Shown here: positions 2,947 to 50,977 of the stretch, one piece after another | Layout of the letters: every line of letters starts with the position of its first letter | Position numbering within the stretch: position 1 is the stretch's first letter | Source of the DNA: a virus | Direction: 5' to 3' (one strand) | IMG/VR virus record: IMGVR_UViG_3300044647_001141 | Span: 1 to 54,235 of that record | Length of the DNA: 54,235 bases | The notes under the pieces: generated by a model | Database searches by the model: none | Seen by the model: only the letters and a program-made list of their open reading frames with translations | What the model was told of the DNA's origin: nothing | Made by a program: the position numbers and the translations under genes

Positions 2947-3421
2947 CAGGATACTTGACACAAAGACGTGGATGCGCACGTCGTATGCCATCAATGACAT
3001 CCTGAGTAAATACGACAAGCTGACCCTTATCAGGCTCATACTGATGATCGAACTCCTTGACTTTCCCTATGGCGCAAAGGTCGGGGAAATGGTGAGCCGC
3101 CTTGAGCTGGATGCGGAAGTGATCAGCGGGGGATTGGAGCGGACGGTATCCTCCACGCCGTGGATGGCCGTTGAAAGGGTAGGGGTGTCGGAGGGAAAGG
3201 TGATGAAAGTGTTCTATCTCACCGAGGAGGGGAAGATCTTCCTAAGAGGCGTAAAGAAGCAATTGCATAAGTCATACCGGAAATACAAGAAACTCGCCAC
3301 CTATGAAAGAGCAAATCTATGGCGTAACCGTGACGTACCCGCAGATCCCATCAGCAAACAAGATCGCGAACCGGGAACTTCCACCAAAACAGCAGTACTT
3401 CCGCAGGGCGGAGACGCCTGA
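2927..3421 (+). CDS. Winged-helix DNA-binding protein, candidate terminase small subunit
   Basis: A 164-residue protein. Residues about 25-115 look like a winged helix-turn-helix: a helix LTLIRLILMIELLDF, the helix-turn-helix AKVGEMVSRLELDAEVISGGLERTV, then a wing VMKVFYLTEEGKIFLRGVKK. The C-terminal tail (about 125-164) is basic and disordered-looking, and its codons overlap the first 40 codons of the large terminase. Phage small terminases usually lie directly upstream of the large subunit and recognise pac/cos DNA with such a fold. The call is therefore by position and fold. A MarR-like regulator is the alternative. Confidence 0.45.
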   Translation: MLASRDDRILDTKTWMRTSYAINDILSKYDKLTLIRLILMIELLDFPYGAKVGEMVSRLELDAEVISGGLERTVSSTPWMAVERVGVSEGKVMKVFYLTEEGKIFLRGVKKQLHKSYRKYKKLATYERANLWRNRDVPADPISKQDREPGTSTKTAVLPQGGDA

Positions 3422-5345
3422 GGTTTTCAACGAGCTTGACTACGACGACGACGGGGATCCGATATACACCGAACAGATGCTTGAGTTCATCCATCAGGAA
3501 CTCGACCGCATCGACAACGGATATTTCTTCTACAACAACCAGAAGCTGGTGTACATCACCGGTGAGCATTATTTCTACATAAACTACTGGACACTTGAGA
3601 ACGATGAGAGACCCGACTATCGCGACTGCGACCGCAGGTGGTTCCTGTTCAAGGACTACTGCCAGCAGCATCCGAGCATAGACGGCGTCATCCGTATCAA
3701 AAAACGCCGGGAGGGTGCTACATCCCAGGAGACCGCATGCCTTGTCAGGACGGCCCTGCGTAACCGCAAGGCGTTCTGCGGCATCATGTCAAAGACCGGA
3801 AAGGATGCCAAGGACTGTTTTGTGAAGATGGTAAAGAACGGATTCGATCAGCTGCCGATATTCCTGAGGCCGACCAACATCGAAGACCCGGACTCGCAGA
3901 TGCAAATTGTGTTCCGAAAGCCGAAGGAGCGCAGTGCCGCCAAGCTCAAACTGAAGCGAAGGAAGGGCCAGGTGTTCGAGGATGACAAGGGCATCGGCAG
4001 CCGCATAGACTTCAGAAATACCGAGCTGAACTCCTATGACTCCGGCAGGCTGACGGAGATACTTGTCGACGAGGGCGGTAAGTTCCCGCCGGATGTGCCG
4101 ATCAATGAATACTGGCCTATCGTCAGGCAGACCCTCCGGCAGGGCGGAAAGAAGGTCGGCTTCTGTGTCATGCCCTCGACGAGCAACAAGCTCACCAAGG
4201 GTGGCCGGGGGTATAAGGTGCTGTGGGACGAGAGTAACCATATCGAGTCTAAGATAACCGCCACGGGACTCTACCGGTATTTCTGTCCGGCACACGATGG
4301 CTACCCTCCCTTCATTGACAAATACGGCAACAGCATCATCGAGAAGCCGACGCGCGAGCAGCAGCTATGGATGAAGGAATACTACGGCGCCACCGATGAC
4401 CAGTGCGAGATGAGTGCAAAGGAATACATCCTGTACCGCCGTTCCCTCATCCGTAACATGGACGCACGCAACGAGGAGACAAGGATGTTCCCGCTCAACG
4501 AGAAGGAGGCGTTCGACTTCGACGACAATACCAATATCTACAACCTCACGGCCATCCGTGACCAGCGGGAATACCTCACAGAGAAGCGACCGGTGCTGCG
4601 GCGTGTCAGGTTCACCAGGGACCGGGATGGCAAGGCGACATGGATAAACGATCCCGACGGCATGTGGCTGGTACTTCGTTTCCCGGACAGCAGCGAGGAG
4701 AACGCAACGATGAGCGATGCGGTGACATCAAAGGTGTCGCCGGCCAACAGGTCTAAATACATTCTGACGGCGGATCCATACAAGAACACCATCGTGGTCG
4801 GGCAGGGGTCAAAGGGTGCCGCCATCGTATGGAGCAAGTTCAATCCGCTTGACCCGGAGAACACGGGCATGCCAATCGCCTTGTTCTGGGGGCGACCAAG
4901 GCGCAAGAAGGAGTTCCACATGCAGATGCTGCTTGCCGGCGAGTTCTGGGGGTGCGAGTTGTGCTATGAGAGCGACTACGATGACTACATCGAATTTCTC
5001 ATGGACGAGGGCAAGATGTCATACGCCATGAAAAGGCCGAAGAACACCATAGATCCGAACAGGAAGCGAAAGGTGATGGGAAAGGAGTATGGCGTCAAGT
5101 CGGGTGACGGGTTCAGCTATTCGATGATGATCGACCGGAGCGTGGAATACGTCGACCAGTACTGCCATAAGATCTACTTCGATGACATCCTCGATCAGCT
5201 CGAAGAATACAGCGAGGAGGAGCGGACACTCTATGACATCGCCGTGGCATTCCAGTTGGGAACCGTCGCCATCAGCGACCCGGTGAAGAAGACAAGGGCG
5301 GAGGCCAAGAAGATGAAACCGTACATGAGGACATACCAGTTGTAA
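3303..5345 (+). CDS. terL: Terminase large subunit
   Basis: A 680-residue ATPase-nuclease that packages DNA through the portal. The N-terminal ATPase has a degenerate Walker A at residues 134-142 (KRREGATSQ), a Walker B at 252-257 (EILVDE) and a coupling motif at 287-295 (FCVMPSTSN). The C-terminal RNase H-like nuclease begins with an acidic 'ILTADPYKN' strand (about residue 490), continues with 'ESDYDDYIEFL' and ends with 'YDIAVAFQLG'. The length suits terminases of podoviruses infecting Bacteroidota. I kept the ATG at 3303 because the upstream residues look conserved (PPKQQYFRR), although this overlaps the previous gene by 119 bases. Confidence 0.92.
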   Translation: MKEQIYGVTVTYPQIPSANKIANRELPPKQQYFRRAETPEVFNELDYDDDGDPIYTEQMLEFIHQELDRIDNGYFFYNNQKLVYITGEHYFYINYWTLENDERPDYRDCDRRWFLFKDYCQQHPSIDGVIRIKKRREGATSQETACLVRTALRNRKAFCGIMSKTGKDAKDCFVKMVKNGFDQLPIFLRPTNIEDPDSQMQIVFRKPKERSAAKLKLKRRKGQVFEDDKGIGSRIDFRNTELNSYDSGRLTEILVDEGGKFPPDVPINEYWPIVRQTLRQGGKKVGFCVMPSTSNKLTKGGRGYKVLWDESNHIESKITATGLYRYFCPAHDGYPPFIDKYGNSIIEKPTREQQLWMKEYYGATDDQCEMSAKEYILYRRSLIRNMDARNEETRMFPLNEKEAFDFDDNTNIYNLTAIRDQREYLTEKRPVLRRVRFTRDRDGKATWINDPDGMWLVLRFPDSSEENATMSDAVTSKVSPANRSKYILTADPYKNTIVVGQGSKGAAIVWSKFNPLDPENTGMPIALFWGRPRRKKEFHMQMLLAGEFWGCELCYESDYDDYIEFLMDEGKMSYAMKRPKNTIDPNRKRKVMGKEYGVKSGDGFSYSMMIDRSVEYVDQYCHKIYFDDILDQLEEYSEEERTLYDIAVAFQLGTVAISDPVKKTRAEAKKMKPYMRTYQL

Positions 5346-5376: not shown

Positions 5377-5709
5377 ATGAGACATGTTGAAAAGGCGCTT
5401 GTCGCCATGAAGGAAAGCAATGAGTTGTCTAAATTTATCAAACTCGAAAATGCGGATGACGTATCCGGCATTGCGCCGGTGGTTAAGTTCACCGTACAGA
5501 GCGATCCGGTGAGTGCCGTAGGCGTGAACGGATTACAGGCCGTCGATATGCTTGAATACGTCAAGAACTTGTTCAAGAGCCTAAACGACACATTCCCCTG
5601 CCGGGAGAACAGCATTACAATCACAAAGATTGAGGAAGCCATTTTTTGGCAGGAGGCCCGGACAAGGGATCGGATGAAGCGCGGCGTAGAAGGACAAAAC
5701 AAGAACTAA
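5377..5709 (+). CDS. Acb2/Tad1-like hairpin protein, candidate cyclic-nucleotide sponge against CBASS or Thoeris
   Basis: A 110-residue protein. Residues 47-110 carry the pattern I associate with phage proteins of the Acb2/Tad1 hairpin group: 'AVGVNGLQ' followed by a helix, 'FPCRENSITITKIEEA', 'WQEARTRDRMKRGVEG' and a short polar tail. The 'CREN-x4-TKxEEA-xxW-x2-RTR-x4-RGVEG' core is highly characteristic. Acb2 proteins are small helical-hairpin oligomers that trap cyclic di- and trinucleotides and so blunt CBASS; Tad1 traps the Thoeris signal. Ligand-binding residues were not verified here. The A-rich leader ACAAACCAAAAACC is typical of the host. The gene lies between the terminase and a nuclease. 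Confidence 0.6.
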   Translation: MRHVEKALVAMKESNELSKFIKLENADDVSGIAPVVKFTVQSDPVSAVGVNGLQAVDMLEYVKNLFKSLNDTFPCRENSITITKIEEAIFWQEARTRDRMKRGVEGQNKN

Positions 5710-5715: not shown

Positions 5716-6555
5716 ATGATAGGCTTTCATGAAAAGGGACATCGCTACGAGTCCATCTCAGAGGATCTTCAGGGCGTGGAGTGGATCAGCGCCACAGGCT
5801 TTGTGGGCCGATTTGAGACACCCTTCGACAAGAATGGAGTTGCGGACAAGGTGAGTAAGAAAAAGGGCAGCAAGTGGTACGGTATGCCCCCCTGGCGTAT
5901 TGTTGAGTTGTGGGATGCGGAGAACCAAAGGTCGACGGATATCGGCTCGATGCTTCACGCCCATCTGGAGCGCAAGTATCTGAGTATGGAAACCATGCCG
6001 CTGTTCGGAAAGGAACTCAAGGTGAACCCACCCTGGTACGACGACCTTGGCAGGAAGATTGACATGCTGCCTCAGATGTCCGAGGGTGTGTATCCTGAGA
6101 AGCTGCTGTTCAAGCGCATCAGCGAAACACTTGGCGTGTGCGGGCAATCCGATGTCGTGGCGATATGCGATGGCAAGGCGCACATCTCCGACCACAAGAC
6201 CAACAAGGAGATAAAGACCGAGAACCACTGGAGTAAACTGCTGCCGCCGTATAGCCATCTGGACGACTGCGAATACAGCAAGTACAACCTGCAGTTATCC
6301 CTGTACATGTGGATTGTATTGCAAAACAATCCGGAGTTAGAGCCGGGCGAGATGCTGATCAGGCACAACCTGTTCGAGATTGAGGCCGTGGATGACTACG
6401 GGTTTCCGGTAGTGGCCATTCGCGGTGGTGTGCCGGTGGTCAGGGAGGTAGTGAAGTACAGGATGAAATACCTGCGCGAGGAGATAGAAAGCGGCATCGA
6501 GTGGATTGTGCGCAATCACAACCGCAAGCAGGCAGCATTAAAAGTAAACCCATAG
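5716..6555 (+). CDS. PD-(D/E)XK nuclease, RecB/Cas4-like
   Basis: A 279-residue nuclease of the RecB-like branch. The motifs are in order: a His in GSMLHAHLE (H81), a Glu in YPEKLLF (E128), a metal-binding Asp in GQSDVV (D146), the D-x-K core SDHKTNK (D159, K161) and the Q-x3-Y signature QLSLYM (Q193, Y197). This motif set defines phage exonucleases and Cas4-type 5'-3' nucleases, which resect double-strand ends for recombination or degrade host DNA. Most of the fold is present, with no helicase attached. It is the last gene of the plus-strand block and is followed by a hairpin. Confidence 0.85.
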   Translation: MIGFHEKGHRYESISEDLQGVEWISATGFVGRFETPFDKNGVADKVSKKKGSKWYGMPPWRIVELWDAENQRSTDIGSMLHAHLERKYLSMETMPLFGKELKVNPPWYDDLGRKIDMLPQMSEGVYPEKLLFKRISETLGVCGQSDVVAICDGKAHISDHKTNKEIKTENHWSKLLPPYSHLDDCEYSKYNLQLSLYMWIVLQNNPELEPGEMLIRHNLFEIEAVDDYGFPVVAIRGGVPVVREVVKYRMKYLREEIESGIEWIVRNHNRKQAALKVNP

Positions 6556-6595: not shown

Positions 6596-7171
6596 TTATG
6601 GGGTGGGTTGGAAGTCGTCCGAGACACTTTGGGATATCAATACACCAAAGGCATCTATGATCTGCCGCAGATGGGAGTCCCACGGCATGATAACGCTTTT
6701 CTCCGCCTTCCATTTGTCCTGGTTGGCCATTAAAATTTCCCGGTTGAGGGTTTCCGGCATGTCGAACAAAATCAGCAGACCCGGATTTTCTGCCGTATTG
6801 TTGCTTATCCGAACCCTGAATCTGTTCTCCCTGGCATCAACTGTCAGCAACCCTTTGCCGGCCAGATTGATCCTTGCGACGCCCGGCTTTGCGGAGAACA
6901 TGAAACTTATCTGTGTGCTGATGCTTCCCGAAACCCTGTCCTCATCGATCTTGCCGTATTTGTAATTTACGTTTTTTATGAGTGCCGCCTTTGCCGAGTT
7001 AAACACCTTGTCCCTGTCGTTCACTGAATCGAGCATGAAGACCTTCTCATAAACTATCCTCCCGTTTTCTATTGGAATTGTGGTCAATACTTCCGCCTCC
7101 GTGTTCTTTATCTGGGCAAATAGAAAGGACGGTAATAGTGACAAGAAGGCGATTGTCTTTACAATGTTCAT
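6596..7171 (-). CDS. Exported DUF4468-like protein
   Basis: A 191-residue protein. The start is the ATG at 7169-7171, because the first residues (MNIVKTIAFLSLLPSFLFAQ) form a clean signal peptide with likely cleavage at A-Q. The much longer open frame upstream is Ser/Arg-rich shadow sequence antisense to no gene. The mature protein begins with the pattern of DUF4468 ('ENGRIVYEKVFMLD'), a TBP-like fold common in secreted Bacteroidota proteins of unknown role. The segment DRDKVFNSAKAALIKNVNYK follows. In a phage, an exported host-type protein at the end of an accessory cassette is best read as a moron that changes the lysogen envelope. The function is unknown. Confidence 0.7.
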   Translation of the reverse strand: MNIVKTIAFLSLLPSFLFAQIKNTEAEVLTTIPIENGRIVYEKVFMLDSVNDRDKVFNSAKAALIKNVNYKYGKIDEDRVSGSISTQISFMFSAKPGVARINLAGKGLLTVDARENRFRVRISNNTAENPGLLILFDMPETLNREILMANQDKWKAEKSVIMPWDSHLRQIIDAFGVLISQSVSDDFQPTP

Positions 7172-7205
7172 GTAACGATTGGATTTCTCAAGGAATTGAT
7201 GCAAA

Positions 7206-7748
7206 CTACTTCTCCTTGTGCGTGTTGCAGAATTTCGTGCCGGAGATGGCGCAGTTCTTGCACTGCACCTTGGTGGACTTAGCGATAGCCTCGCATTGCC
7301 CGAACTTGCAGGCGGCATCCACTTCTGTGCTATATGACCTTGTGAACAGGGAGAACAGAATGATGAACAGGACGACAATGCCGAGGCATCCGGACTTGTT
7401 GGCGGATACCGTTTTTTCGTCAATGGTCTCTCCGGAAAGCGCCTTGGATACAAGACCGAAGAACTTATCGACGATCTCATTGGCCTGGTTGCCGCTGTTG
7501 GTCGCCTTGTTCGAGGTCAGTATGATCTGTGTTTCGGTGTCACTTACTTTCTTGAGCTGTATGGTGGCCGGGACAATTACCGCAAAGCCGCCGACAAGGG
7601 CAACGGTGTAGGTGTTCATGACGGCGTCCCTACTCTCTATCTGGTAGAACTTTTTGCTTGCCGCACATACTTTTTCAATTGCTTCCTTAACATCTGCAAT
7701 GGGGAATGATACCTGTACGTCTCTGTTGATGCCGATTGATAATGCCAT
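7206..7748 (-). CDS. Membrane protein with C-terminal Cys/His zinc-ribbon-like motif
   Basis: A 180-residue protein. Residues about 1-95 form a soluble domain with alternating strands (VQVSFPIADVKEAIEKV, TYTVALVGGFAVIVPAT, ETQIILTSN), possibly of the same TBP-like class as its neighbour. A single membrane segment follows near residues 119-134 (GCLGIVVLFIILFSLF). The end is Cys-rich: CKFGQCEAIAKS, CKNCAISG and FCNTHKEK, reminiscent of the 'CxAxT-x2-G-x2-C ... yCxxH' zinc motifs (DUF5763-like) of Bacteroidota. The start is preceded by AACCAAAAAAAC, the leader seen at several genes here. The function is unknown. It is the penultimate gene of the minus-strand cassette. Confidence 0.65.
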   Translation of the reverse strand: MALSIGINRDVQVSFPIADVKEAIEKVCAASKKFYQIESRDAVMNTYTVALVGGFAVIVPATIQLKKVSDTETQIILTSNKATNSGNQANEIVDKFFGLVSKALSGETIDEKTVSANKSGCLGIVVLFIILFSLFTRSYSTEVDAACKFGQCEAIAKSTKVQCKNCAISGTKFCNTHKEK

Positions 7749-7806
7749 GTTTTTTTGGTTTAATGGTGTTTATATGGATGCGGAGATGAAATTAATGAAT
7801 GAATGT

Positions 7807-7944
7807 TTACCGGCATGTGGCATTTATGACATATTTATTTTTGCTGCCGGGATTATCACGCAGCGCATCAGCAAAATGTTCCTTTGCCTGTCTTAATGCG
7901 ATCAAAGCATTGACTACACTACTTGCCCCTTTGTTCATTGCCAT
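7807..7944 (-). CDS. 45-residue small protein, possibly a truncated larger family member
   Basis: A short gene of 46 codons including the stop. It starts with ATG at 7942-7944 (MAMNKGASSVVNALIALRQA) and ends with TAA at 7807-7809. The helical core LIALRQAKEHFADALRDNPGS has good codon use and polarity for a real protein, and it overlaps the 3' end of the preceding gene by 26 bases. I recall similar 'ALIALRQAKxHFxxAL' N-termini in longer phage proteins, so the short length may mean a truncation. It fills the otherwise empty interval 7749-7918. Confidence 0.45.
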   Translation of the reverse strand: MAMNKGASSVVNALIALRQAKEHFADALRDNPGSKNKYVINATCR

Positions 7945-8161
7945 ATGTTTCGTTGTAGTGTACTGCTGCGTCTTTTATTTCTGATTCACCTTTAGCATAT
8001 TCATATCCATTCCATTTGCCCGCATGAAAGGCATCTTCAATCTGCTCCTTCTCCATTGCTTTTGCTTTATGATATTCAGCTATGGGCAATTTCTTAAAAT
8101 ATCCGTGTTCAACCAATATATCTAAAAGCCATTCTACTGCAGTCTGCTTGTTATTCTCCAT
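7919..8161 (-). CDS. Small hypothetical protein, paralogue of the next upstream gene
   Basis: An 80-residue protein in an A+T-rich run of tiny genes. It shares a layout with the gene at 8151-8360: 'QTAVEWL' near the N-terminus, then 'AKAMEKEQIEDAF' (versus 'AKIIEKEQIAHAY') and a C-terminal 'YNETYG' (versus 'YKETYG'). Small proteins with this TAVEWL...EKEQI...YYxETY pattern are frequent in Bacteroidota phages and prophages, but I know of no assigned function. The start codon overlaps the upstream gene's end by 11 bases. Confidence 0.7.
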   Translation of the reverse strand: MENNKQTAVEWLLDILVEHGYFKKLPIAEYHKAKAMEKEQIEDAFHAGKWNGYEYAKGESEIKDAAVHYNETYGNEQRGK

Positions 8162-8360
8162 ATGTTTCTTTATAGTATTGTTCTGGTCTAAATTCTTTAT
8201 CTGTCATATCGTAACTTCCCTGTGTGTAAGCATGCGCAATCTGCTCCTTCTCAATAATTTTAGCAAAATCAAACCATGCGTTAATGCTTCCCACTAATTC
8301 TTCCGATGATGCGGTTGAAAGTTTTTGGTATAACCACCCTACTGCCGTTTGTTGTGCCAT
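8151..8360 (-). CDS. Small hypothetical protein, paralogue of the 7919-8161 gene
   Basis: A 69-residue protein. I start it at the ATG at 8358-8360 (MAQQTAVGWLYQKL), not 30 bases upstream, because this matches the paralogue and the shared 'MAQQT/MAQKT' beginnings of the next two genes upstream. Its leader is pure A+T, as at its neighbours. It has 'TAVGWL', 'AKIIEKEQIAHAY' and 'YYKETYGE' in the same order as its downstream copy, so the two arose by tandem duplication. The function is unknown. Confidence 0.7.
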   Translation of the reverse strand: MAQQTAVGWLYQKLSTASSEELVGSINAWFDFAKIIEKEQIAHAYTQGSYDMTDKEFRPEQYYKETYGE

Positions 8361-8390
8361 GTGTTTTATTTTATATATTTTATGTGCCAT

Positions 8391-8594
8391 TTAATTATAG
8401 GAACGAAACCAACTGCGTTTTGAATTAGCCATAAATTTAGTTTGGCACTTTACGCATTCGAATTGCCCTACCTCTCTACCATCAACCATGTCAATAAATT
8501 TACATTCTTCAATCGTTCTAATATGGTGAAAAATGGCACATAACAAGGTATTTATAAAAGAATGGCTTTTGTGCTTAATTGTCTGTTGTGCCAT
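8391..8594 (-). CDS. Small Cys-containing hypothetical protein
   Basis: A 67-residue basic protein starting MAQQT. The C-terminal half has an ECVKCQTKF knuckle preceded by EECKF, which could be half of a zinc site. The N-terminal half, with SFINTLLCAIFHHIRTIEE, is hydrophobic and helical but probably too short and charged to span a membrane. It belongs to the A+T-rich minus-strand cassette. Family and function are not recognised. Confidence 0.5.
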   Translation of the reverse strand: MAQQTIKHKSHSFINTLLCAIFHHIRTIEECKFIDMVDGREVGQFECVKCQTKFMANSKRSWFRSYN

Positions 8595-8597
8595 AAT

Positions 8598-8996
8598 TTA
8601 CTTTTTGAATAGTGTTTTAAAGTATTGTTTGATTGCCCACCATATAAGCATTCTAATTGCTTTTCTTTGATTGTGATATGGTAATTGAAAAAAATCTGGG
8701 AATACATTAATTAACACCTTACGAGTATTTGCATAGTAGTAAGTAGATTCTATTTTTTCATTGATAGGTGGATTGTTCCGCACGGAAAATGTAAATTCTG
8801 GATTTGAGCTAATTGAAAACTTACCATTATTTACAGGTATATTGATACGCATTGTGGAAACTAAATCTTGATTTGCAGTAACTGTAAACTTACCACCGAA
8901 TTTGTAAGTAGATTCCTTTTCCATTTGATTTGCACTAACTGAAAAATCACCGAAACTGTAAGTAGATTCTTCTTTTATTGGCGTTTTCTGTGCCAT
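8598..8996 (-). CDS. Hypothetical protein with internal beta-strand repeats
   Basis: A 132-residue protein starting MAQKT, with the leader AAACCAAATAAC. The N-terminal 80 residues repeat a short unit several times: ESTYSFGDFSVSANQ, ESTYKFGGKFTVTANQ, then NGKFSISSNPEFTF and IESTYYY. The C-terminal 45 residues are different: basic, aromatic and helical (FFQLPYHNQRKAIRMLIWWAIKQYFKTLF), perhaps membrane-associated. This combination suggests a short repeat region fused to an amphipathic or membrane anchor. No family is recognised. Confidence 0.5.
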   Translation of the reverse strand: MAQKTPIKEESTYSFGDFSVSANQMEKESTYKFGGKFTVTANQDLVSTMRINIPVNNGKFSISSNPEFTFSVRNNPPINEKIESTYYYANTRKVLINVFPDFFQLPYHNQRKAIRMLIWWAIKQYFKTLFKK

Positions 8997-9006
8997 GTTA
9001 TTTGGT

Positions 9007-9270
9007 TTATAGTTTTTCTATTTCTTGTTTAACTTCTCGCCAATATTTATCAGCTTCTTCTCGTTGTTCTTCGTAATAATACTCATGAGTTCCACCGCAA
9101 TCATCCCAATCAACATTGGATGGATTACGAGGTTCTGAGTTTATTATCTTATCCACTACTAACAATGCAATTTTTTTACTTGCTAAAATATCAAGATTGC
9201 CACACTCAACAGATGGGATAATATTATAAATCAATGTTACAATTTGTACAGCTTCTTCTTTCGGTGTCAT
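9007..9270 (-). CDS. Small hypothetical protein, tandem paralogue
   Basis: An 87-residue protein starting with ATG at 9268-9270 (MTPKEEAVQIV), inside an ATGA overlap with the preceding gene's stop. It shares its first residues (MTPKE) and last residues (VKQEIEKL) with the gene directly upstream, so the two are tandem duplicates whose middles have diverged. The C-terminal third is very acidic (EYYYEEQREEADKYW). The MTPKEKA...A...V..I pattern is common in short Bacteroidota phage proteins of unknown function. Confidence 0.65.
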   Translation of the reverse strand: MTPKEEAVQIVTLIYNIIPSVECGNLDILASKKIALLVVDKIINSEPRNPSNVDWDDCGGTHEYYYEEQREEADKYWREVKQEIEKL

Positions 9271-9509
9271 AGTTTTTCTATTTCTTGTTTTACTTGAAAC
9301 CAATAATCCATAGTCGAACAAACATCTGTATTGAGAGGTTTACTGTGTGGGTTTGATGCTATTATGTAATTAACAGCTGTCATTGCGCAAGCTTTAGCGT
9401 ACTGGTTCCTGTGAACGGGTTCACTCTCCCCAGTTTGCGTATTAATTATCGTATAAGTCGAAAACCCCATAGCGTGATATAGTTCGTAAGCCTGTTCTTT
9501 CGGTGTCAT
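9267..9509 (-). CDS. Small hypothetical protein, tandem paralogue
   Basis: An 80-residue protein (MTPKEQAYELYHAMGF). The sequence KACAMTAVNYIIASNP matches KKIALLVVDKIINSEP of the downstream copy, and both end in VKQEIEKL. Both code for a small helical protein with a polar middle. The leader AACTAAATAAC resembles those of neighbouring genes. The stop overlaps the next start as ATGA. No function is recognised. The duplication is recent enough that the ends remain nearly identical at DNA level. Confidence 0.65.
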   Translation of the reverse strand: MTPKEQAYELYHAMGFSTYTIINTQTGESEPVHRNQYAKACAMTAVNYIIASNPHSKPLNTDVCSTMDYWFQVKQEIEKL

Positions 9510-9510
9510 G

Positions 9511-9786
9511 TTATTTAGTTATGAATAATTCATACACGCTATTCTTTGTCCTAAACTTCACATGCGCTTCACTCTGCTCGATGATTTGCGTGACGGTTGT
9601 GGTCAGCCATCTGTACCCTGCGCTGAATGGGCCAAGGATGCACGACCTGCCCACTGCGATACTATCATGGATAGTATTAGCCGAGTCATCCTCGTTCCAC
9701 TCTACCCATCCAACCTTGTCCGATTGCTTGGTCAAGCCGTCACTTTCTCTAACCAGTTTGTATGTCGTGCTTGCGGGATTATCCAT
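9511..9786 (-). CDS. Small hypothetical protein
   Basis: A 91-residue protein with alternating polar and hydrophobic stretches that fit a small beta-rich fold (WVEWNEDDSANTIHDS, CILGPFSAGYRWLTTTVTQI, HVKFRTKNSVYELFI). The 3' end lies one base from the next gene and the start overlaps the upstream tiny membrane-protein gene by 8 bases. No known family is recognised. Codon use is more G+C-rich than in the genes that follow. Confidence 0.55.
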   Translation of the reverse strand: MDNPASTTYKLVRESDGLTKQSDKVGWVEWNEDDSANTIHDSIAVGRSCILGPFSAGYRWLTTTVTQIIEQSEAHVKFRTKNSVYELFITK

Positions 9787-9946
9787 TGTATGTTTTATGA
9801 GTTTTATACACCAGGATCCATAAAATCAAAACGAGCGTAAATAGCGTGGACACGGGAAAGTAAAATGCGCCAGCAACGAGAATCGCTGTCAGGCTTAACG
9901 TTATGAGCAAAAGTGCGGAGGCATAAAGAGCCGATTTGGTATTCAT
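9779..9946 (-). CDS. 55-residue protein with two predicted membrane segments
   Basis: A short gene of 56 codons including the stop. It starts with ATG at 9944-9946 after the leader AAACCAAAAAACAAAATAAC and stops with TAA at 9779-9781. It has two hydrophobic segments: residues about 6-30 (YASALLLITLSLTAILVAGA) and about 33-47 (STLFTLVLILWILVY), separated by a Pro, with a basic C-terminus. The topology suits a tiny inner-membrane protein such as a superinfection-exclusion or toxin-like factor, but no family is recognised. The strong leader and the overlap with the next gene support it. Confidence 0.6.
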   Translation of the reverse strand: MNTKSALYASALLLITLSLTAILVAGAFYFPVSTLFTLVLILWILVYKTHKTYNG

Positions 9947-10008
9947 GTTATTTTGTTTTTTGGTTTAACTGAAATGTAATCTGATGGCATCCGGGAATGA
10001 CCAAGAGA

Positions 10009-11706
10009 TCATAAATTCTTTTGAGTATTCTCGTATTCTTCAATAGTCTTGAAGATGGCATATGGAATCTGAGGTACTACTGCATTCCCGTATGCCTTGA
10101 TGGATTCGTTTCGCCACTTTGACCAAGCGGAAACTGTCCTCCTCTCGACTTCCATAGCAACCAGTGCAATTTCATGTGACAAGTACGGCATAGTGTCTGC
10201 AAATTGTTCCTTGAATTGTTTTTCCAATTCTCGTCCTTGTGGTGTATTTGCAAATGTTCCGTACTCCCGCAGTTTTCGCAGTAGTGCCTCCGATGTTTCC
10301 TCGCTAAATGCAGATGTCCCTTTCTCGTCTGTATTGGAGGGCGAACATAACTGCAAGACTTTGAGCAGTATTGTCGGCTCATGTATCTTGTATAATCCTC
10401 CCAGATATTCCCGAATTTCCTCCGATTGAAGGATATCCCACACTTCCTGCAATTCTTGATCGGTGTATCTTTCAGTGATTGTGGCATATATTTCCGGCTT
10501 TATATGTCTAACCATCCAGTCGGAAACCCCATCATACTTTCCACAAATTGGGGATTGAGTTGGGAACTCTTCCCAGTCTGGGCGAATGCATCCGGAAGTG
10601 AATTTGTTTCCGTTCTGCCCGATGCTTCCAATGCCTCCGAAGATCTCGCCCCCTTGTAATCTCTCGTTGCCGGTGTCGGCAGCATCCCCATTGCCATTGC
10701 TCTGCTCAATGTCACCGAATGCATTGAACCTTCCTTGACTTGACTGCTCTTCATCTTCGCAGTCGCATTCGTTGAATCCATTGCGGTCGGAGTCGGCAGC
10801 ATTTGTAACCTTGCCATTTGCTTCAATGGCATTTGTAAATTCACCCCCTTCTCTGCCCATTTCTCCTTGTCTATCTCCCATTTTTCGGGTGTCCTGGCTG
10901 AGTTCCAATCGAAGGCGTTCGGGGTCGGGAGCAATCCCATTGTTGCATAATCGTTCAGACCAAATGTCCATCCTTGTGATATTTTCCGTTTCGTTCTGCC
11001 ATCCTCCATTTTGCTGCCATACTTCTCGTCCCTTGTTTGTGGTGTCGGCAGCATCCCCATACTTGCCATCCGACCTATGTTGAGAGAATGACTGCTCTTC
11101 CCATCCGTTGTCTTCCGTCTTCCGTTCTCGTTCATCTCGCAATCCGATTCCGGTTCCTGGGTTGTTGGTGTGGGCAACAAACCAAACTCTGTCTCTGCGG
11201 TGGACAGAGCCGACACCTGCAGCTGGAAGTACATACGATTGTACTTCGTACCCTTCAGCTTCCAGGTCAGCTTGCACCTCGTGGAATACCAGTCCTCCCG
11301 ACCAATTAATAAGGCCGAAAACGTTCTCTCCCACGACCCATGTTGGCTGAACTTCCCGAATGACTCTAAGCATTTCCGGCCAGAGATGTCGAGAGTCTTC
11401 CTTGCCGAGTCTTTTTCCGGCTGCGGAGTAGGGTTGGCAGGGAAATCCACCGGTGAGAATAATGTCATCTGTTCTCCAATTGTCCCCAAATCTTTTTGAG
11501 AGTTCATAGTTTAATTTTTCGTAGGTGAGTGTATGTATGTCATCATGGTGGTACGCATCAGGCCAATGATACTGCAAGACATTATTTCCAAATGGATTTA
11601 TTTCGCACGAGGCAATGTTTGTCCAACCCATCCATTCGGATGCCAGATCAAACCCTCCGATTCCACTAAATAGACTTATGTGAAGCATCTTCTTTACTTT
11701 TTTCAA
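10009..11706 (-). CDS. C5 cytosine-specific DNA methyltransferase with two nested reading frames
   Basis: A 565-residue protein that would transfer methyl from S-adenosylmethionine to cytosine C5. Motif I is FSGIGGF (13-19), motif IV GGFPCQPYS (86-94, nucleophile C90), motif VI GENV (126-129), motif VIII HRRDRVW (169-175) and motif X GNAVVPQ (540-546). The 364 residues between motifs VIII and X are far longer than usual, polar and Asn/Gly/Glu-rich with repeated DAADT-type segments. Residues about 67-402 and 407-543 are also read in a second frame as the LPTP-repeat and HNH proteins. The frame has to be continuous because motif X lies after both. An ATG at 11688 is an alternative start. The product may shield phage DNA from restriction. 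Confidence 0.85.
   Translation of the reverse strand: MKKVKKMLHISLFSGIGGFDLASEWMGWTNIASCEINPFGNNVLQYHWPDAYHHDDIHTLTYEKLNYELSKRFGDNWRTDDIILTGGFPCQPYSAAGKRLGKEDSRHLWPEMLRVIREVQPTWVVGENVFGLINWSGGLVFHEVQADLEAEGYEVQSYVLPAAGVGSVHRRDRVWFVAHTNNPGTGIGLRDERERKTEDNGWEEQSFSQHRSDGKYGDAADTTNKGREVWQQNGGWQNETENITRMDIWSERLCNNGIAPDPERLRLELSQDTRKMGDRQGEMGREGGEFTNAIEANGKVTNAADSDRNGFNECDCEDEEQSSQGRFNAFGDIEQSNGNGDAADTGNERLQGGEIFGGIGSIGQNGNKFTSGCIRPDWEEFPTQSPICGKYDGVSDWMVRHIKPEIYATITERYTDQELQEVWDILQSEEIREYLGGLYKIHEPTILLKVLQLCSPSNTDEKGTSAFSEETSEALLRKLREYGTFANTPQGRELEKQFKEQFADTMPYLSHEIALVAMEVERRTVSAWSKWRNESIKAYGNAVVPQIPYAIFKTIEEYENTQKNL
10077..10487 (-). CDS. HNH endonuclease nested in the methyltransferase gene
   Basis: A 136-residue HNH nuclease in the same frame as the LPTP protein and offset from the methyltransferase. 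Zinc-type pairs are C13/C16, C41/C45, C70/C73 and C100/C103. The catalytic core is 'LQIHHKDENWKNN' (H82, H83, N87, N90) followed by 'NLQTLCRTCHMKLHW' (H104, H108), the standard HNH layout. Such proteins cut DNA as homing enzymes, restriction enzymes or packaging partners. The ATG at 10485-10487 follows the LPTP stop by 12 bases. The C-terminus ends inside the codons for methyltransferase motif X. A match this specific cannot be explained as a shadow frame. Confidence 0.8.
   Translation of the reverse strand: MPQSLKDTPIKNCRKCGISFNRRKFGNIWEDYTRYMSRQYCSKSCSYVRPPIQTRKGHLHLARKHRRHYCENCGSTEHLQIHHKDENWKNNSRNNLQTLCRTCHMKLHWLLWKSRGGQFPLGQSGETNPSRHTGMQ
10500..11507 (-). CDS. LPTP-repeat phage protein overprinted on the methyltransferase gene
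   Basis: A 335-residue protein in another frame of the same strand as the methyltransferase. It starts at ATG 11505-11507 after an A+T-rich leader. The N-terminal part has 'LDISGRKCLESFGKF', 'WERTFSALL', 'LTWKLKGT' and 'MYFQLQVS'. Five LPTP motifs follow at residues 111, 153, 193, 237 and 276, 39-44 residues apart. The end is 'QLNPQFVESMMGFPTGW'. I recognise this architecture from many phage and prophage proteins of unknown role ('SGRKC...LTWK...LLPTP...LNPxFVExMMGFPxGW'), so the frame is very unlikely to be accidental. Its stop lies 12 bases before the nested HNH gene. Confidence 0.7.
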   Translation of the reverse strand: MNSQKDLGTIGEQMTLFSPVDFPANPTPQPEKDSARKTLDISGRKCLESFGKFSQHGSWERTFSALLIGREDWYSTRCKLTWKLKGTKYNRMYFQLQVSALSTAETEFGLLPTPTTQEPESDCEMNENGRRKTTDGKSSHSLNIGRMASMGMLPTPQTRDEKYGSKMEDGRTKRKISQGWTFGLNDYATMGLLPTPNAFDWNSARTPEKWEIDKEKWAEKGVNLQMPLKQMARLQMLPTPTAMDSTNATAKMKSSQVKEGSMHSVTLSRAMAMGMLPTPATRDYKGARSSEALEASGRTETNSLPDAFAQTGKSSQLNPQFVESMMGFPTGWLDI

Positions 11707-12034
11707 CTGTTATGTCATCGCCGGCAATGATGCAATCGATGATCGTCTCGACTACCTCTCGCTCTTTCGGACTCAGCTTGGCGATCTTCTCCTGTATCGC
11801 CAGTGTGGTGAAGACATCCGACTCCCATTCTGCCCGTATGCCGTCTCGTATCACCTGGGGGAAAAGGGGGTATGTAATGATGTCGCCATAAATCCATTCC
11901 AATTTTGCGCAGTACTGCTTCATCAACCTTGCGCCAATGGTTCCCGGGTTCTCTCGTTGGAAAGAACCAAAATGCTCATACGCCTGTCTGACGGAATGGA
12001 TGGCGTTTACCAGATCTGATGCTCCTGATTTCAC
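11666..12034 (-). CDS. Hypothetical helical protein upstream of the methyltransferase
   Basis: A 122-residue protein starting at GTG 12032-12034, overlapping the previous stop (ATGTGA), and running 41 bases into the methyltransferase start. It is helical with a Trp/Tyr-rich centre (YCAKLEWIYGDIITYPLF, DGIRAEWESDVFTTLAI) and an acidic end (KSKEDASHKSI). No catalytic motif or domain is recognised. Tight overlaps on both sides indicate co-translation with the replication protein and the methyltransferase. Confidence 0.6.
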   Translation of the reverse strand: MKSGASDLVNAIHSVRQAYEHFGSFQRENPGTIGARLMKQYCAKLEWIYGDIITYPLFPQVIRDGIRAEWESDVFTTLAIQEKIAKLSPKEREVVETIIDCIIAGDDITVEKSKEDASHKSI

Positions 12035-12714
12035 ATTACGAATTTTCGTTCTTCAATTTTTGGCACAACCTTGAGGCTGCCCGGTCGGGTTCCCTGGCGG
12101 ATGTTCGGGAACCAATACCCCTTTGCATACGCCTTCCAGTCCATGATCTTTCTGCCGTTCTTGTCCACCCATCCGATGGCGGAATTCTTGTTGTAGAATA
12201 GTTCCGCCTGCTTGAGATCCTTGCCGTTTTCAAGGAAGTATGCCTTTACTTCTTCTTCCTCAGGCGCTAAAAAATTGTCTTTGCCTGTGTGTGTGTGTTC
12301 TGTATTTGTATTATGTATTACTGTATTAGTGTATTCTGTATTTGAAATGGAGGTTTTCCGCTGCGGATTATCCGTTGCGGATTTACCGCTGCGGATTATC
12401 CGTTGCGGAAAATCGCTATCGGTTAAGGGGGTAGGGTAGGCCCTAATGGAATATTCGAAAGTTCCGGCTGCGGTTTTATGGCAAATACATTCAGCGTAAC
12501 CCTTCTTTTCAAGTTCACTAAAGGCGGATGTAACGGCGGAATACCCGTCTTTGCAGTAGGACGTTAAGTCCTTTTTCCGGATGACGGTATGATCTTGGAG
12601 TAGAAGCATAATCTGAAGCAAGGACTTGGCCTTTAGGCTGATCCTGTTGTCAAAGGCGATATTCTTCAGAATGGTGATGTCCATCTTGGGACTTCTTTGG
12701 TCGCTTCCAAGCAT
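12031..12714 (-). CDS. Winged-helix replication initiator-like protein (phage O/DnaD-like)
   Basis: A protein of 227 residues from the ATG at 12712-12714; an ATG at 12684 (MDITIL) is also possible, while the longest open frame runs back through the promoter and is unlikely. Residues about 12-80 form a helix-turn-helix (ILKNIAFDNRISLKAKSLLQ, VIRKKDLTSYCKDGYSAVTS, ELEKKGYAEC) followed by a beta wing (GTFEYSIRAY). A Ser/Thr/Asn-rich linker of about 70 residues leads to a C-terminal 'AELFYNKNSAIGWVDKNG' and 'DWKAYAKGYW' region, the ending often seen in Bacteroidota replication proteins. It probably binds the origin and loads the helicase encoded at 52219. It is transcribed divergently from the portal. 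Confidence 0.65.
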   Translation of the reverse strand: MLGSDQRSPKMDITILKNIAFDNRISLKAKSLLQIMLLLQDHTVIRKKDLTSYCKDGYSAVTSAFSELEKKGYAECICHKTAAGTFEYSIRAYPTPLTDSDFPQRIIRSGKSATDNPQRKTSISNTEYTNTVIHNTNTEHTHTGKDNFLAPEEEEVKAYFLENGKDLKQAELFYNKNSAIGWVDKNGRKIMDWKAYAKGYWFPNIRQGTRPGSLKVVPKIEERKFVM

Positions 12715-12816
12715 TGGAAATAAAAACCCCGTTAGGACTTCAGGGCCGACACCCATCCGCCCAAACGGGGCCAAAATCAGTTCAGATACCGTGTCGGCGG
12801 TTCTACAACACAAACA

Positions 12817-12839
12817 TACGTATAAAAAGCGTAAATTTG
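12817..12839 (+). promoter_or_regulatory. Promoter of the portal operon with inverted-repeat operator
   Basis: TAAATTTG at 12832-12839 matches the Bacteroidota -7 box. Directly upstream TACGT-N7-GCGTA (12817-12833) is an imperfect copy of the inverted repeat at four other promoters. The portal GTG start is 18 bases downstream. The region also separates the divergent replication and portal genes, so one regulator could act on both. Confidence 0.5.
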
Positions 12840-12857
12840 ACAAAATTTAATTTTGCC

Positions 12858-15332
12858 GTGAGTTACCAAGCGCCTTTGAGCCAAACCCTGTACGAGTTCC
12901 ATACCTCGACTCCGTCCAAGAAGTCGGACCCTGAGTTCGGGCGGACCGTTGCAAGGCAGATGGTCAACACGATCCGCGATGGCCTCAATGGCTACTACGT
13001 AAAGCGCAACCGGCGATTCGCCGACCTGAGGAAGATCGCCCAGGGGCGACATGACATGCGGGAGTTCCTTGACCTGATGGGCATAGACGGCAAGAACGCA
13101 TACGTAAAGCTCGACATGACACCGCCGGCCATCCTGCCCAAATTCCTCGACATCGTCGTAGAGCGGTTCATGGAACTGGAGGAGCGCCCAACGGTCACGG
13201 CCGTCGATGACAACTCCAAGCAGCAGCGGCAAAAGGAGATCAATGAGGCTGAATTCGCTATGAACATGGGCGGCGTCATTGCGGGACTGGAGCAACAGGC
13301 AGGCATCCCGCTGGTGGACCCCAACAAGTACATCCCTGAGAACTACGATGACCTGACGCTATACTTCGAGACGGAACACAAGCTTCCAGAGGAGGTAAAA
13401 TTCCAAAAACGCATACTCGACGCCCTTGATGACGGAGGCTATGAGGTCTTCAAGCGTTCGATGCTCTACGACCTGGTTGAGGTCGGCATGGCATGGGCGT
13501 TCGTCTACAAGGACGAGAACGGAGCAAAGAAATACCGCCGTTGCATACCGGAGAACACCATCTACTCGTGGAGCAACTACGACGACTTCAGGGATTCCAC
13601 GGTCATTGGAGAACTGGAAAAGATGAAGGTCTCCGACATCCGGGCCAGGTTCCCCAAGATCAACGAGCGAACCCTGTTCGACATGTTCAAGCGCACCGAT
13701 CAGGGTGGCAAGGCCGAACTTTCCTGGGCGGAGGAGTTCCGGGTGATGCTGATCCGGCCCTATGATGACTGCGTGGTGGAGCTTTTCCACTTCCAGATCG
13801 TCACCACCGAGGAGCGCATGTGGGTGGAGAAGCGCGACAGCTACGGAAAGAGCGTGCTGAACGAGAAGAAGGAAAGGCCAAAATACCTGGGCGACAACAA
13901 GACACTCATCGAAAAGCGCCTGAAGGTCGTGTACACCGGCTGCTATTCTCGCACCACGGACGAGATGCTTGAGTGGCGTGTCATGGAGAACATGATCAAG
14001 CCGCATTACGCCATGCACGAGGCGTTCACCAACTATGTCGGATTCATGCCCAACAACCGGGACATGGTCAACATCTCGCTCACCGAGCGGTCCATTACGG
14101 CGATAAGGATGCTCTCGCTCATCCAGCTTAAAAAGCAGCAACTCATCGCCAAGATGCGCCCCGACGGATTGCTGGTCAACACACGGGCCTTGCAGGGCGT
14201 ACACTTGGGCATGGGTCAGGATGCGGAGTCTCCGCTTGAACTTCAGGCCATGTACGACCAGACGGGCATCCAGTACTACACCGACCTCGACGAGGATGGA
14301 GAGACCCGTAACGGCGCACCCATCCAACCCATCGAGAGCAATGGCAACGCCCAAAGCCTCATGGCGCTCGACCGGGAATACAACTTCTGGATCGATAAGC
14401 TGCGCAGCGACCTCGGCACCAACGAATACGTAGAGGGTCAGTCCGTCAATCCAAAGCTCGGACTGGGCGTCATGAACAACCAGATCAGCGCCTCCAACCG
14501 GGCCACCAACTTCGTGTACCGTGGATTTCTGAGCATCCTTGAGGGCATCGCCAAGCGCATCGCCATCATGGACTGGTACGACATCGTCGAGACGGGTTCC
14601 AGGGAATACGGCATCACGCCTGATGAGATGGAGGGAAAAATCTTCGACATCAAGATTGACATGGCGCCCACCGATACCGACCGAATGTACATCGAGCAGA
14701 TGGCACAGACCGCGCTATCCGCCGGTCTGATCACTTTTGAGGAGGCTGTAAAGGTCAGGCGCATCGCAAAGGAGAACGTCAAACTGGCTGAGATATACCT
14801 TGGCAAGTACGAGGCCAAGCGCAAGCGGGAGCAGCAGGAGTCCGCACAGCAGAACTCAATGGTGCAGGCACAGATACAGGACCAGGTCGCAAAGAACAAG
14901 GCGCAAAGCGACGCCCTGCTGCTTCAGGGTAAAGGTCAATTCGACCTCAAAAAGCAGCAGATGCTCAATGAGGCCGCCAAGACACAGGTCATGGGTCAGG
15001 TGGTCAACACCATCCTCTCTGAGTGGATGAAGATGGGCAAATCGGTTTCCGAGATGCCGCAGGAATTCCAGTCGATGGTATCCGCCTTCATGCAGAACAT
15101 GGTAGGCTCGCAGCAACTGCAGGCGGCACGCAACGAGCAGGAGGCCGGTGAGATGCAGCAGGAGATGATGGAATCGCAACAGGAGGCAATGATGCAGCAG
15201 CAGGAAGGTCAGCCGGATATGGAAGAAGGCATGCAGTCGCCAGAAGGGCAGCAACCCGAAATGGAATCGGAGATGGAGATGCCGGAGTCAGAGGGTCCGC
15301 AAGAAGGGCAGGAGGCAGAGACCGAGGATTAA
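12858..15332 (+). CDS. Portal protein
   Basis: An 824-residue protein, a size typical of podovirus portals. I chose the GTG at 12858 (starting VSYQAPLSQTLYEF) because it lies just downstream of the promoter; the open frame extends upstream through the promoter only as an artefact. The body is an alpha/beta scaffold with long helices, e.g. PPAILPKFLDIVVERFMEL and a region 'WIDKLRSDLGTNEYVEGQS', the latter resembling crown/stem helices of portal proteins. The last 150 residues are Gln/Met/Glu-rich and coiled, ending in repeated MQQQEG-type acidic sequence. It would form the 12-mer at the capsid vertex through which the terminase threads DNA. The call rests on size, position before scaffold and capsid, and composition. 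Confidence 0.8.
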   Translation: MSYQAPLSQTLYEFHTSTPSKKSDPEFGRTVARQMVNTIRDGLNGYYVKRNRRFADLRKIAQGRHDMREFLDLMGIDGKNAYVKLDMTPPAILPKFLDIVVERFMELEERPTVTAVDDNSKQQRQKEINEAEFAMNMGGVIAGLEQQAGIPLVDPNKYIPENYDDLTLYFETEHKLPEEVKFQKRILDALDDGGYEVFKRSMLYDLVEVGMAWAFVYKDENGAKKYRRCIPENTIYSWSNYDDFRDSTVIGELEKMKVSDIRARFPKINERTLFDMFKRTDQGGKAELSWAEEFRVMLIRPYDDCVVELFHFQIVTTEERMWVEKRDSYGKSVLNEKKERPKYLGDNKTLIEKRLKVVYTGCYSRTTDEMLEWRVMENMIKPHYAMHEAFTNYVGFMPNNRDMVNISLTERSITAIRMLSLIQLKKQQLIAKMRPDGLLVNTRALQGVHLGMGQDAESPLELQAMYDQTGIQYYTDLDEDGETRNGAPIQPIESNGNAQSLMALDREYNFWIDKLRSDLGTNEYVEGQSVNPKLGLGVMNNQISASNRATNFVYRGFLSILEGIAKRIAIMDWYDIVETGSREYGITPDEMEGKIFDIKIDMAPTDTDRMYIEQMAQTALSAGLITFEEAVKVRRIAKENVKLAEIYLGKYEAKRKREQQESAQQNSMVQAQIQDQVAKNKAQSDALLLQGKGQFDLKKQQMLNEAAKTQVMGQVVNTILSEWMKMGKSVSEMPQEFQSMVSAFMQNMVGSQQLQAARNEQEAGEMQQEMMESQQEAMMQQQEGQPDMEEGMQSPEGQQPEMESEMEMPESEGPQEGQEAETED

Positions 15333-36711: not shown

Positions 36712-39700
36712 ATGGATGAAGAACAACTGAAGTATCTGTTCGACAAATACGGAACAAAGGGCGGATTCCCAAGTTTTGATGCTTTCAAGTCCTTGATGTC
36801 GGATGGAGAAAGTCGAAAGGTGTTCTTTGATCGTAGAAATGCCGAGATGAAGTTCCCGGACTTTAACGAATTCGAGAGGATTCTTGGAGTTCGGCAGCAA
36901 CAACAAGTAGCTGCCGGAAATTTGCCGGCGTCTACTCCAACAGATCCGACTATCCAGGTAGCAAACCAAGCAATGCCTGGCATGCAGCAAATACCGGGAC
37001 AAGAACTTTTAAAACTCACAAAGGACTATGTCAAGTCCCTTGATCAGAGCGGGCAGCCTGGCAGCCAGTCTATACCAAGCCAAATGGGTGCGAACAGCAG
37101 TGCGCCTGGTTTTATCCCTTCATTGCCATCTGCGCCCGTAGTGTCCAATCAGAAGACATCATATGATTATAGCAATGAATTGAATTCTCTTGGATACAAA
37201 CCCGAGAAGATTGCAGCACTCCTTGGCGACTTGCCGGACAATACGCCAGACTACACTGTAAACGAACTCCTGTCGCTTACCGATCCCATTGATATAAAAC
37301 GCAAAAAGGCGGCAACCATATGGCAGGCCAATGTCAATGACTATATCGAGCGGATCGAGGATCCGGTCAAGAAGCAACAGGCTTCCGAACTATTTGCAAC
37401 AGCGTTGCAAAAATATGAGAACGCACCTTCTTATGAAGATGCCATTAATGGCATAAGGGCATATGCGCTTCCGCTCATAAATTCATACGAGGGTAGTGCA
37501 GACATCTCCGAGATGCGCAACGCATTGCGTATTGATGCTGAGTACGGCATTGCAAAGTCCATGCTCAAAGATCCCAAGTCATTCACCAAGTACCAGGGCA
37601 TAGGACTCAATCCCTTGCAGGGCCTTGCACTTGATGTCACCCTTCTGTTCGACCCAAAGGGGGAGGAGATAAAAAGGCAGATAACCGACAAGTACACGGA
37701 TCCGGATGCCATCGCCATGCAGCAGGTAAAACTTGCACAACTTGAAAACGAGGGTCTCAGGATACTCGGCAATGAGGTTGGCCGCATGCTTGGCAAACTA
37801 TCAAAGGGAGTTATCCAGTCCAATGATTTCTACGAGCAGAACAAAGGCAGGATTGATGCCCTTGTTACTACCATCAAGTCGGACGATAGCGTACCGGAGC
37901 AGATTAAGGCTTCCGCTGAAGCGTACAAAAAAGAGTATGACGCCATCGTGTCCGGGACAAGCGACGGGGCGTTCACGAGTCCTTATGATTTTGCGGTACT
38001 CAAAGAAAAGATAGACAACAAGACCATCTCCGGGGCAGAAGTAAAAGACTACAATAAAAGGGTTATTCAGATAAAGGAGCTGAACAGCAAGTATGCTGAC
38101 ATATTTGGGCAGTTCAATAGTGTCATCGACCAAAGAAACGAGGCCGTCAGGGAATACGGCAGCCTGGTTGACAAGCTGGACAAGATGTCAGAGGGTAGTG
38201 AAGACTACAAGCAGCTTCAGTCGTGGATGAACTACATCAATGACCAAAGGAATACGCTCATAGACAGGTATCCGGCCTATGGCTCCGACTATGTGCATCA
38301 ACTTATTCAAGAGCAAACCGGCGCATATACCGGAACGATGGACAGGGCGTACATGACCTTTGTCGACAATGCGGGCGTAGAGGCAACGCAGCTCGTCAAG
38401 AAGGTTGTCAATAATTTCATGGGGATCTGGATGGGCGACAAGTATGTGCGCGAGGTCGAGATGTCGGATGCCCGAAAAAGAATGGTGGACGACCTGACTT
38501 TCAACTATCAGACCGGAAGTCAGATGATGTTTGATGAGCGGACTATGGTCCCGGTCATGGAAAAAAAATACCAGCAGCGCATTGATGAAGTAAAGGCCAG
38601 GGGGTACTCAAAGAGAGAGGAGCAAGCGGCACTCTACCCAATCATTGATGAGGCGGTAAGGAACGGGGGCGTTCAGTACGTCTATAATCCGAACAAGGGT
38701 AAATATAACTTCACAGCGGCCTCGATTGGAAATGCCGTAGCAACCGTGGTGCCGCAATTCCTCGGCCAAATGGCACAGACGGCCTACCTCGGCGGCTTTG
38801 GGAATATAGGCAAGGTGCGCAGGATGGCCACACTGGGCGCATCCGTATTTGCCAATACATTCCCAAGGGCCTATGACAATGCCGTACAGATGGGCATCAG
38901 CCATCCGGGTCAGTATGCAACGGCACAGTCATTGGTTGAGGTGGCCTCTGAAAGTATGTTCGACAACATCAAGATGATCAAAAGCGTAGTGCCTCAGATC
39001 AGGCAGATGTTCTCCGGATTGTCCAATGGGGAATGGAAGATGATTGTTAGCGGAGTGGCAAAAAAGAATTTCAGTGGCGAGGCTGCCAAGGTGTTGATGG
39101 ATTACGGCAAGGAGTCGGTGATTGAAGAAGGTGCGGCGAATATAATGGGCAACGTCTCCGACAAGTATGTATTCAACATCGACAAGAAATGGAATGAGGG
39201 ACTGAAGCAGACCCTTTCCACCAGTGTTGTAGGAATGCTTCCGCTTGCAGCGATCGGCATACCGCTTCGCATGCGCAGTGCCAATATCGTCAACAAGATG
39301 AATATCTATGAGGCTGCCGCGCGTTCCGAGCAAGTCATCTCGGATATAAACAGCCAGGTGTCGGAGGGCAGGATGAGTTTCGATGAGGCACAAAAGCACA
39401 TCAAGGCCATCAAGCTCATGAGCGATGTCATCCATACCATGCCGACCACCAATGCCATTGGTAAACCATTGACCGACGGCCAGAAGGCCAAATACGCATG
39501 GAACGAGTATGTCATCCGGCTCGCGAAGATAGATGAGAGCAATGCCCCTACCACCGTCGTAAGGGAGATAGCAGACAGGGTCAATGAGGCCGACAAGGAG
39601 AATGCCGACATCCTAAATGACGATGACATCAAGACATTCACCGAACTGTCCTTGCAGGGCGAGAACCCGGTAGCCGCTCAGAGCCAGCCTGTCATTGAAT

Positions 39701-50949: not shown

Positions 50950-50977
50950 AAGTCCAAAAAAAACCAAAAAAGCAGCA

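Follow-up and report, generated by a model that had tools for sequence, protein, structure and literature searches.

The window, that is, the whole stretch of DNA analysed here, is an IMG/VR virus record of 54,235 bases. On its plus strand, an ORF that runs from an ATG at 5377 to a stop codon ending at 5709 encodes a protein of 110 amino acids (ORF listing); on the ORF call, phrog_2428, the solved Tad1 chains, and the predicted model, it is regarded as a tad1-like gene of the MRHV clade (5377–5709). The protein comprises an N-terminal module (residues 1–38; 5377–5490, plus strand), delimited in an AlphaFold2 model made with a clade alignment; a QSDPVSAVGVNG segment (residues 41–52; 5497–5532, plus strand), in which Q41, G49, N51, and G52 are retained and position 43 is substituted (D43); and a predicted helical hairpin (residues 55–102; 5539–5682, plus strand), which holds the CREN loop, R95, and R99 and is obtained in AlphaFold2 with both alignments used. 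All four motifs quoted in a first-pass annotation of this DNA, namely CREN (75–78), TKIEEA (83–88), RTR (95–97), and RGVEG (102–106), are present in the ORF.

That annotation had also placed the gene next to the terminase, and the large subunit gene (TerL; 3303–5345, plus strand; phrog_6681, E 2e-80) does end 31 bp before the tad1-like ORF begins. Directly downstream lies a PD-(D/E)XK exonuclease gene (5716–6555, plus strand; phrog_298, E 1.7e-19; PF12705 below its cut-off), followed by a minus-strand cassette (6596–12843) with a GC content of 0.437, against 0.505 for the window. The cassette includes genes for a C5 cytosine DNA methyltransferase (10009–11706, minus strand; PF00145, E 3.4e-35) and a replication-initiation-like protein (12031–12843, minus strand; phrog_4707, E 7.2e-12); the start of the latter ORF is uncertain, and it overlaps the upstream part of the portal ORF (12714–15332, plus strand), the true start of which is probably near 12960. 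The portal ORF is 37.8% identical over 757 amino acids to the TerL-adjacent gene in L097, and four annotated portals also match it. In all five relatives whose terminases are related to that of the window (L097, phi18:3, Panino, ctfjg026, and elemoA), the portal directly follows the terminase. In the window, 7.4 kb separate the two, and the tad1-like gene opens this insert, which is completed by the exonuclease gene and the minus-strand cassette.

Elsewhere in the window, a gene for a papain-family cysteine protease (49698–50450, plus strand; PF00112, E 3.7e-11) adjoins one for a calcineurin-like phosphoesterase (48697–49695; PF00149, E 2.1e-7), and a phosphoesterase (phrog_221) also occurs beside tad1-like genes of the MRHV clade at loci L200 and L203. 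The virion region includes an ORF of 3073 amino acids (36712–45933, plus strand) that has no Pfam match above the cut-off. A tyrosine integrase gene (50888–52204, plus strand; PF00589, E 1.3e-8) suggests a temperate lifestyle, and the relatives of the terminase are largely of the podovirus type. A megablast search with positions 1–25000 of the window identified no DNA-level relative in the phage collection, and a plasmid search gave no match.

On sequence matches and predicted fold, the 110-residue protein is related to Tad1 (Thoeris anti-defence 1) and not to Acb2. The profile phrog_2428 matches residues 12–109 (E 1.7e-17), and the annotated Tad1 protein of Bacillus phage SBSphiJ7 falls in the same PHROG (E 8e-47). 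When the protein was compared with solved chains by phmmer, CmTad1 (8kbb, E 3.1e-11), CbTad1 (7uav, E 1.7e-7), and gp184 (E 1.3e-5) were recovered; together with the phrog_2428 match, these hits indicate that the match of the ORF is not due to chance. A profile built from 63 relatives matched CmTad1 (positions 12–110, E 1.8e-29) and CbTad1 (positions 17–110, E 3.4e-19), and the seven distinct sequences that it retrieved among the solved chains at E ≤ 1 were all Tad1 chains or gp184. No Acb2 chain was found at this threshold, and an Acb2 identity was rejected on these grounds at the sequence level. Residues that are near-invariant in the sampled Tad1s, a criterion of our own that has no published definition, give a divided picture: Q41, G49, N51, G52, D57, C75, N78, R95, T96, R99, R102, and the VEG triplet are kept, and F40, G43, R65, L66, F69, A81, and L92 are switched. 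The phage collection contains 31 records that match the protein at E ≤ 1e-3, all of them with less than 60% identity, the highest value being 52% (Brochothrix phages).

The hairpin family model, the comparison to which the first-pass annotation had pointed, counts against the assignment: the match of the protein to PF24729 (Acb2_Tad1_hairpin), at 20.6 bits (E 5.2e-4), does not reach the curated gathering cut-off of 27 bits, whereas SBSphiJ7 Tad1 scores 34.2 bits. Only four of ten relatives pass this cut-off, with two below it and four without a match, so that the low score reflects the model more than the protein.

AlphaFold2, run on the single chain, gives a helical hairpin that superposes on Tad1, as expected for the hairpin protein that had been proposed. 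With a general Tad1 alignment (mean pLDDT of the model 70.9) the hairpin was confident, but the N-terminal 29 residues had values below 50, so no conclusion on the N-terminus is drawn from this model. The clade alignment gave a model that was confident along its full length (mean pLDDT 93.2, pTM 0.83) and comprised an N-terminal module of helices 3–14 and 16–20 and strands 21–24 and 35–38, a short helix (45–48), and two long antiparallel C-terminal helices (55–72 and 76–102), the last two being predicted with high confidence in both runs. Foldseek searches with the clade-alignment model placed Tad1 chains at ranks 1–12, all with a probability of 1.00 (the next chain had an E value of 1.2), and in VIA-align Tad1 entries occupied ranks 1–7, with the first unrelated entry at Z 5.9. 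The hairpin core fits that of CbTad1 closely, with a Z-score of 8.5 and an rmsd of 1.8 over 72 residues; the N-terminal module superposes loosely, giving an rmsd of 5–6 once included. As a point against the Tad1 assignment, Z-scores in the range from 6 to 8.5 are not high when the fold is helical.

The possibility that the protein is instead an Acb2 (anti-CBASS 2) protein that would bind cyclic oligonucleotides only seems very improbable. The Pfam hairpin family is common to Acb2 and Tad1, and the predicted fold shares with Acb2 (T4 Vs.4, 7uq2) a two-helix hairpin, while its N-terminal helix recalls the short one given for Acb2 in the accessible text of a review (PMC12043709); the Acb2 protomer is all-helical, with two long helices after the short one. 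T4 Vs.4 does appear low in the lists for the first model (Foldseek E 5.9; VIA-align Z 5.9, rmsd 5.4 over 57 residues), but it superposes poorly and has no sequence match at E ≤ 1 even with the clade profile, which reaches 1.8e-29 for Tad1; moreover, the leading Foldseek ranks are all Tad1, and two beta strands precede the hairpin in the predicted model. That Acb2 does not appear in the VIA-align list for the second model is given no weight here. Sequence matches and the predicted hairpin support the proposal that the protein is part of the Tad1/Acb2 hairpin superfamily. The earlier double label, anti-CBASS/anti-Thoeris, holds for its Tad1 half, and its Acb2 half is less likely because Tad1 is the match by both sequence and fold; the earlier interpretation is partly supported, with Acb2 corrected to Tad1. 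The residues that had been read as a 45-residue N-terminal extension are likewise better regarded as the counterpart of the N-terminal module of Tad1, somewhat shorter than usual; the profile aligns with the solved Tad1 chains from position 12 or 17 to 110. That module is predicted, in a monomer, as a helix and two strands, in contrast to the four-stranded antiparallel N-terminal sheet described for Tad1 in the accessible text of the same review (PMC12043709). The clade may truly differ here, or this may be the ordinary Tad1 module as it looks when its partners are absent.

SBSphiJ7 Tad1 (OM982674) shares with the window protein PHROG 2428, the NG segment, the CREN loop, and the R..R..VEG tail and is 39.8% identical over residues 28–109, but it is 142 amino acids long and has a longer N-terminal module. 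CmTad1 (8kbb/8kbc) and CbTad1 (7uaw/8smd/8kbf) have a hairpin like that of the window protein and differ in their described N-terminal sheet and in carrying R where the window protein has L65 and F where it has L69. The nearest relatives outside the MRHV clade are MALETL-type proteins and a group of short (79–87 amino acids) Tad1-like proteins, encoded on viral and genome contigs; both share the Q..P..GxNGCQ and PCREN motifs with the window protein, although their N-terminal module is different or nearly absent and they mostly have G43. A protein of Burkholderia phage FLC9 (L012, 748–1764) joins a cyclophilin domain (PF00160, E 2.5e-44) to a C-terminal part that resembles Tad1 (28.6% identity, E 4e-4). 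Tad1-like proteins are also encoded on contigs putatively binned as Patescibacteria (L119), Lokiarchaeota (L146), Pacearchaeota (L113), and Thermoplasmatales (L133), of which those in L119 and L146 keep the CREN hairpin and lack the QxG..NG segment.

The window protein belongs to a separate monophyletic clade, missed by the first-pass annotation, which is named after the MRHV start shared by its members with few exceptions. Besides the window, the clade comprises 42 loci in viral contigs (L175–L215 and L217) with 32 distinct proteins, which match the window protein over essentially its full length with 58–72% identity. In a tree of 76 rows, which took in alternate proteins of the clade (17 rows) and roughly half of the other Tad1s, the clade forms one side of a branch with a support of 97/80 and is recovered in 99% of 200 bootstrap trees. 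Relative to 74 other Tad1-like sequences, the clade has switched from F40 to I or V and carries the changes G43D, R65L, L66F, F69L, A81T, and L92Q; glycine occupies position 43 in 74/74 of the others, and SBSphiJ7 Tad1 has F, G, R, L, F, A, and L at the seven positions. By contrast, the CREN loop and the basic residues are invariant within the clade, including R95 and R99 (32/32), and N78 is also kept. The window protein departs from its own clade at A47 (E in 32/32) and F90 (H in 31/32).

These comparisons derive from two surveys: the first used a pattern over residues 49–58 (82 loci confirmed, 80 kept; L068 was left out because of a wrong frame) and the second, aimed at nearer relatives, one over residues 74–83 (186 loci confirmed, 80 kept). 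Conservation within these two stretches is therefore partly imposed by the patterns; neither pattern covers positions 40, 43, 65, 66, 69, or 92, and at position 81 the clade pattern allowed T or A. Duplicate proteins and L216 were left out of the residue comparison. In the first survey, the window protein stood apart with V40, D43, L65, and Q92 against the near-universal F, G, R, and L, and a decay of conserved residues specific to the window was considered, D43 being unique among 75 sequences. This reading was dropped, since the second survey brought in a clade that shares D43, L65, and Q92 as its rule.

The clade is under purifying selection: among 107 pairs, the 25 with the least saturation, which are not independent of one another, gave dN/dS values between 0 and 0.31. 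All eight members examined score below the PF24729 cut-off (18.9–25.8 bits), so annotation based on Pfam would miss the clade. A second clade query matched 88 records of the phage collection, all with less than 60% identity, and no isolated phage in that collection encodes a clade member at 60% identity. No paper on the clade was found in the literature searched; the primary Tad1 papers and a 2025 preprint on sponge diversity, which lay outside that search, may cover it. The MRHV clade represents a coherent, uncultured variant of the known Tad1 family.

The genes around clade members are diverse. Among 43 loci (L175–L217, mostly with about 3 kb of flanking sequence and some with less), the exonuclease of the window has a relative in one and its methyltransferase in three, and no relatives of its terminase or portal were found near tad1; a fixed gene neighbourhood was rejected accordingly. 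Other terminases may have been missed, because the PHROG scan covered just 10 flanking ORFs. In L212 a clade gene follows a different terminase at a distance of 2 bp, and in L177 one has a RecE-like exonuclease gene and a C5 methyltransferase gene nearby; further neighbours include the relative of the window exonuclease (L180), a helicase (L217), and a replication initiator (L215). The clade gene acts like an accessory gene carried from phage to phage, and the surroundings that it enters are often those of recombination or packaging genes. Outside the clade, a RecA/UvsX-like recombinase is annotated next after tad1 in seven of eight records of Bacillus-type herelleviruses (L003, L006–L008, L011, and L013–L015), and in SBSphiJ7 (L003) the following gene is annotated as hypothetical. 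The frequent proximity of recombination or packaging genes would also suit a protein that retains the fold without binding a signal and serves as a structural or DNA-processing accessory, and some homologues are annotated as "putative structural protein" or "ABC transporter ATPase," which look like automatic names. Such a role is unlikely, however, because the clade keeps the CREN loop and basic residues invariant, and the neighbours vary as widely as expected of an accessory gene.

The virus probably infects Bacteroidota, as had been proposed. TerL has 87 relatives in the phage collection, with less than 60% identity, whose named hosts are all Bacteroidota (Flavobacterium, Cellulophaga, and Maribacter), and only 7 of 41 clade leaders have an SD-like motif before the start codon, against 8 of 8 in the Bacillus-phage controls, a pattern that phages of Bacteroidota would be expected to show. 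Among 198 Bacteroidota genomes, 46 have ThsB-TIR, 21 have SMODS cyclases, and 3 have STALD (ThsA-type), in each of these three within about 1.3 kb of a ThsB-TIR match, which indicates that signals a sponge could trap exist in this phylum. A point against a Tad1-type sponge here is that Tad1 homologues themselves are rare in the sampled Bacteroidota genomes: of 395, only 2 carry a Tad1-like gene, and one of these is the seed. In another order, the seed is the single case among 42 genomes.

With homology, predicted fold, clade, selection, and genomic context established here, the gene is proposed to encode a signal-sequestering sponge of the Tad1 type, with a probability of roughly 0.78. Tad1 is a hexamer of dimers. 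The protein would be expressed during infection, would assemble through its helical hairpins as characterised Tad1 proteins do, and would bind, without cleaving them, cyclic signals such as gcADPR from Thoeris TIR enzymes and/or the cyclic tri- or dinucleotides of CBASS, so that the abortive-infection effectors of the host would stay off. The hexamer, ligand, sequestration, and anti-defence effect are taken from the characterised Tad1 proteins, and by the same analogy the most likely role is sequestration of TIR- or cGAS-type signals. According to the accessible part of the review, Tad1 and Acb2 sequester gcADPR, CDNs, and CTNs (PMC12043709).

In the alignment, R95 and R99 correspond to R109 and R113 of CbTad1 (entry numbering) and N78 to its N92. 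We take N92, R109, and R113 of CbTad1 to be functional residues. Position 69 is Leu in the window protein and the clade but F82 in CbTad1, presumably an aromatic ligand contact. This change and those at G43 and R65 speak against a Tad1-type sponge, as does the predicted N-terminal module with its helix and two strands. Kept basic residues together with a changed pocket candidate fit a working sponge that may differ in its choice of ligand, and the fixed substitutions of the clade make an altered ligand preference plausible. As a special case of the sponge proposed above, the clade might trap another ADPR-type or cyclic nucleotide than the characterised Tad1s; His-ADPR is also a Thoeris signal. 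That seven positions switch together near fixation (F40I/V to L92Q), in a monophyletic clade (97/80) with strong internal conservation, and that the host phylum has many TIR genes and few STALD-type ThsA argue for this possibility. On the other side, the placing of the switched positions in the pocket is putative, and Leu also occurs at position 69 in some other Tad1s (8 of the 75 first-survey sequences, including the window). It is therefore tentative, and on balance doubtful, that the MRHV pocket has been rebuilt, by the loss of G43, R65, and F69 and with an N-terminal helix, to trap a different immune nucleotide.

We know of no catalytic residues in Tad1, which counts against the protein being a signal-degrading enzyme instead of a sponge, an exceedingly improbable alternative. 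The accessible text of the RyDEP preprint suggests that sponge families may include enzymatic members (PMC13232231), but the characterised homologues sequester, as far as the review's accessible text describes them (PMC12043709).

A Tad1-type sponge in these phages would matter since sponges serve as a readout of the nucleotide signals that are important in a host. Certain members of the Tad1 family also set off the Panoptes counter-trap, according to the accessible part of one report (PMC12657218). The MRHV clade is conserved and probably belongs to Bacteroidota phages, all of its tested members fall under the Pfam cut-off, and it has no close representative in the phage collection. If the tentative rebuilding of its pocket were true, it would point to a Thoeris- or CBASS-like signal of Bacteroidota beyond those of the known sponges. 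The clade thus offers about 30 proteins with which the immune signals that Bacteroidota phages face could be tested.
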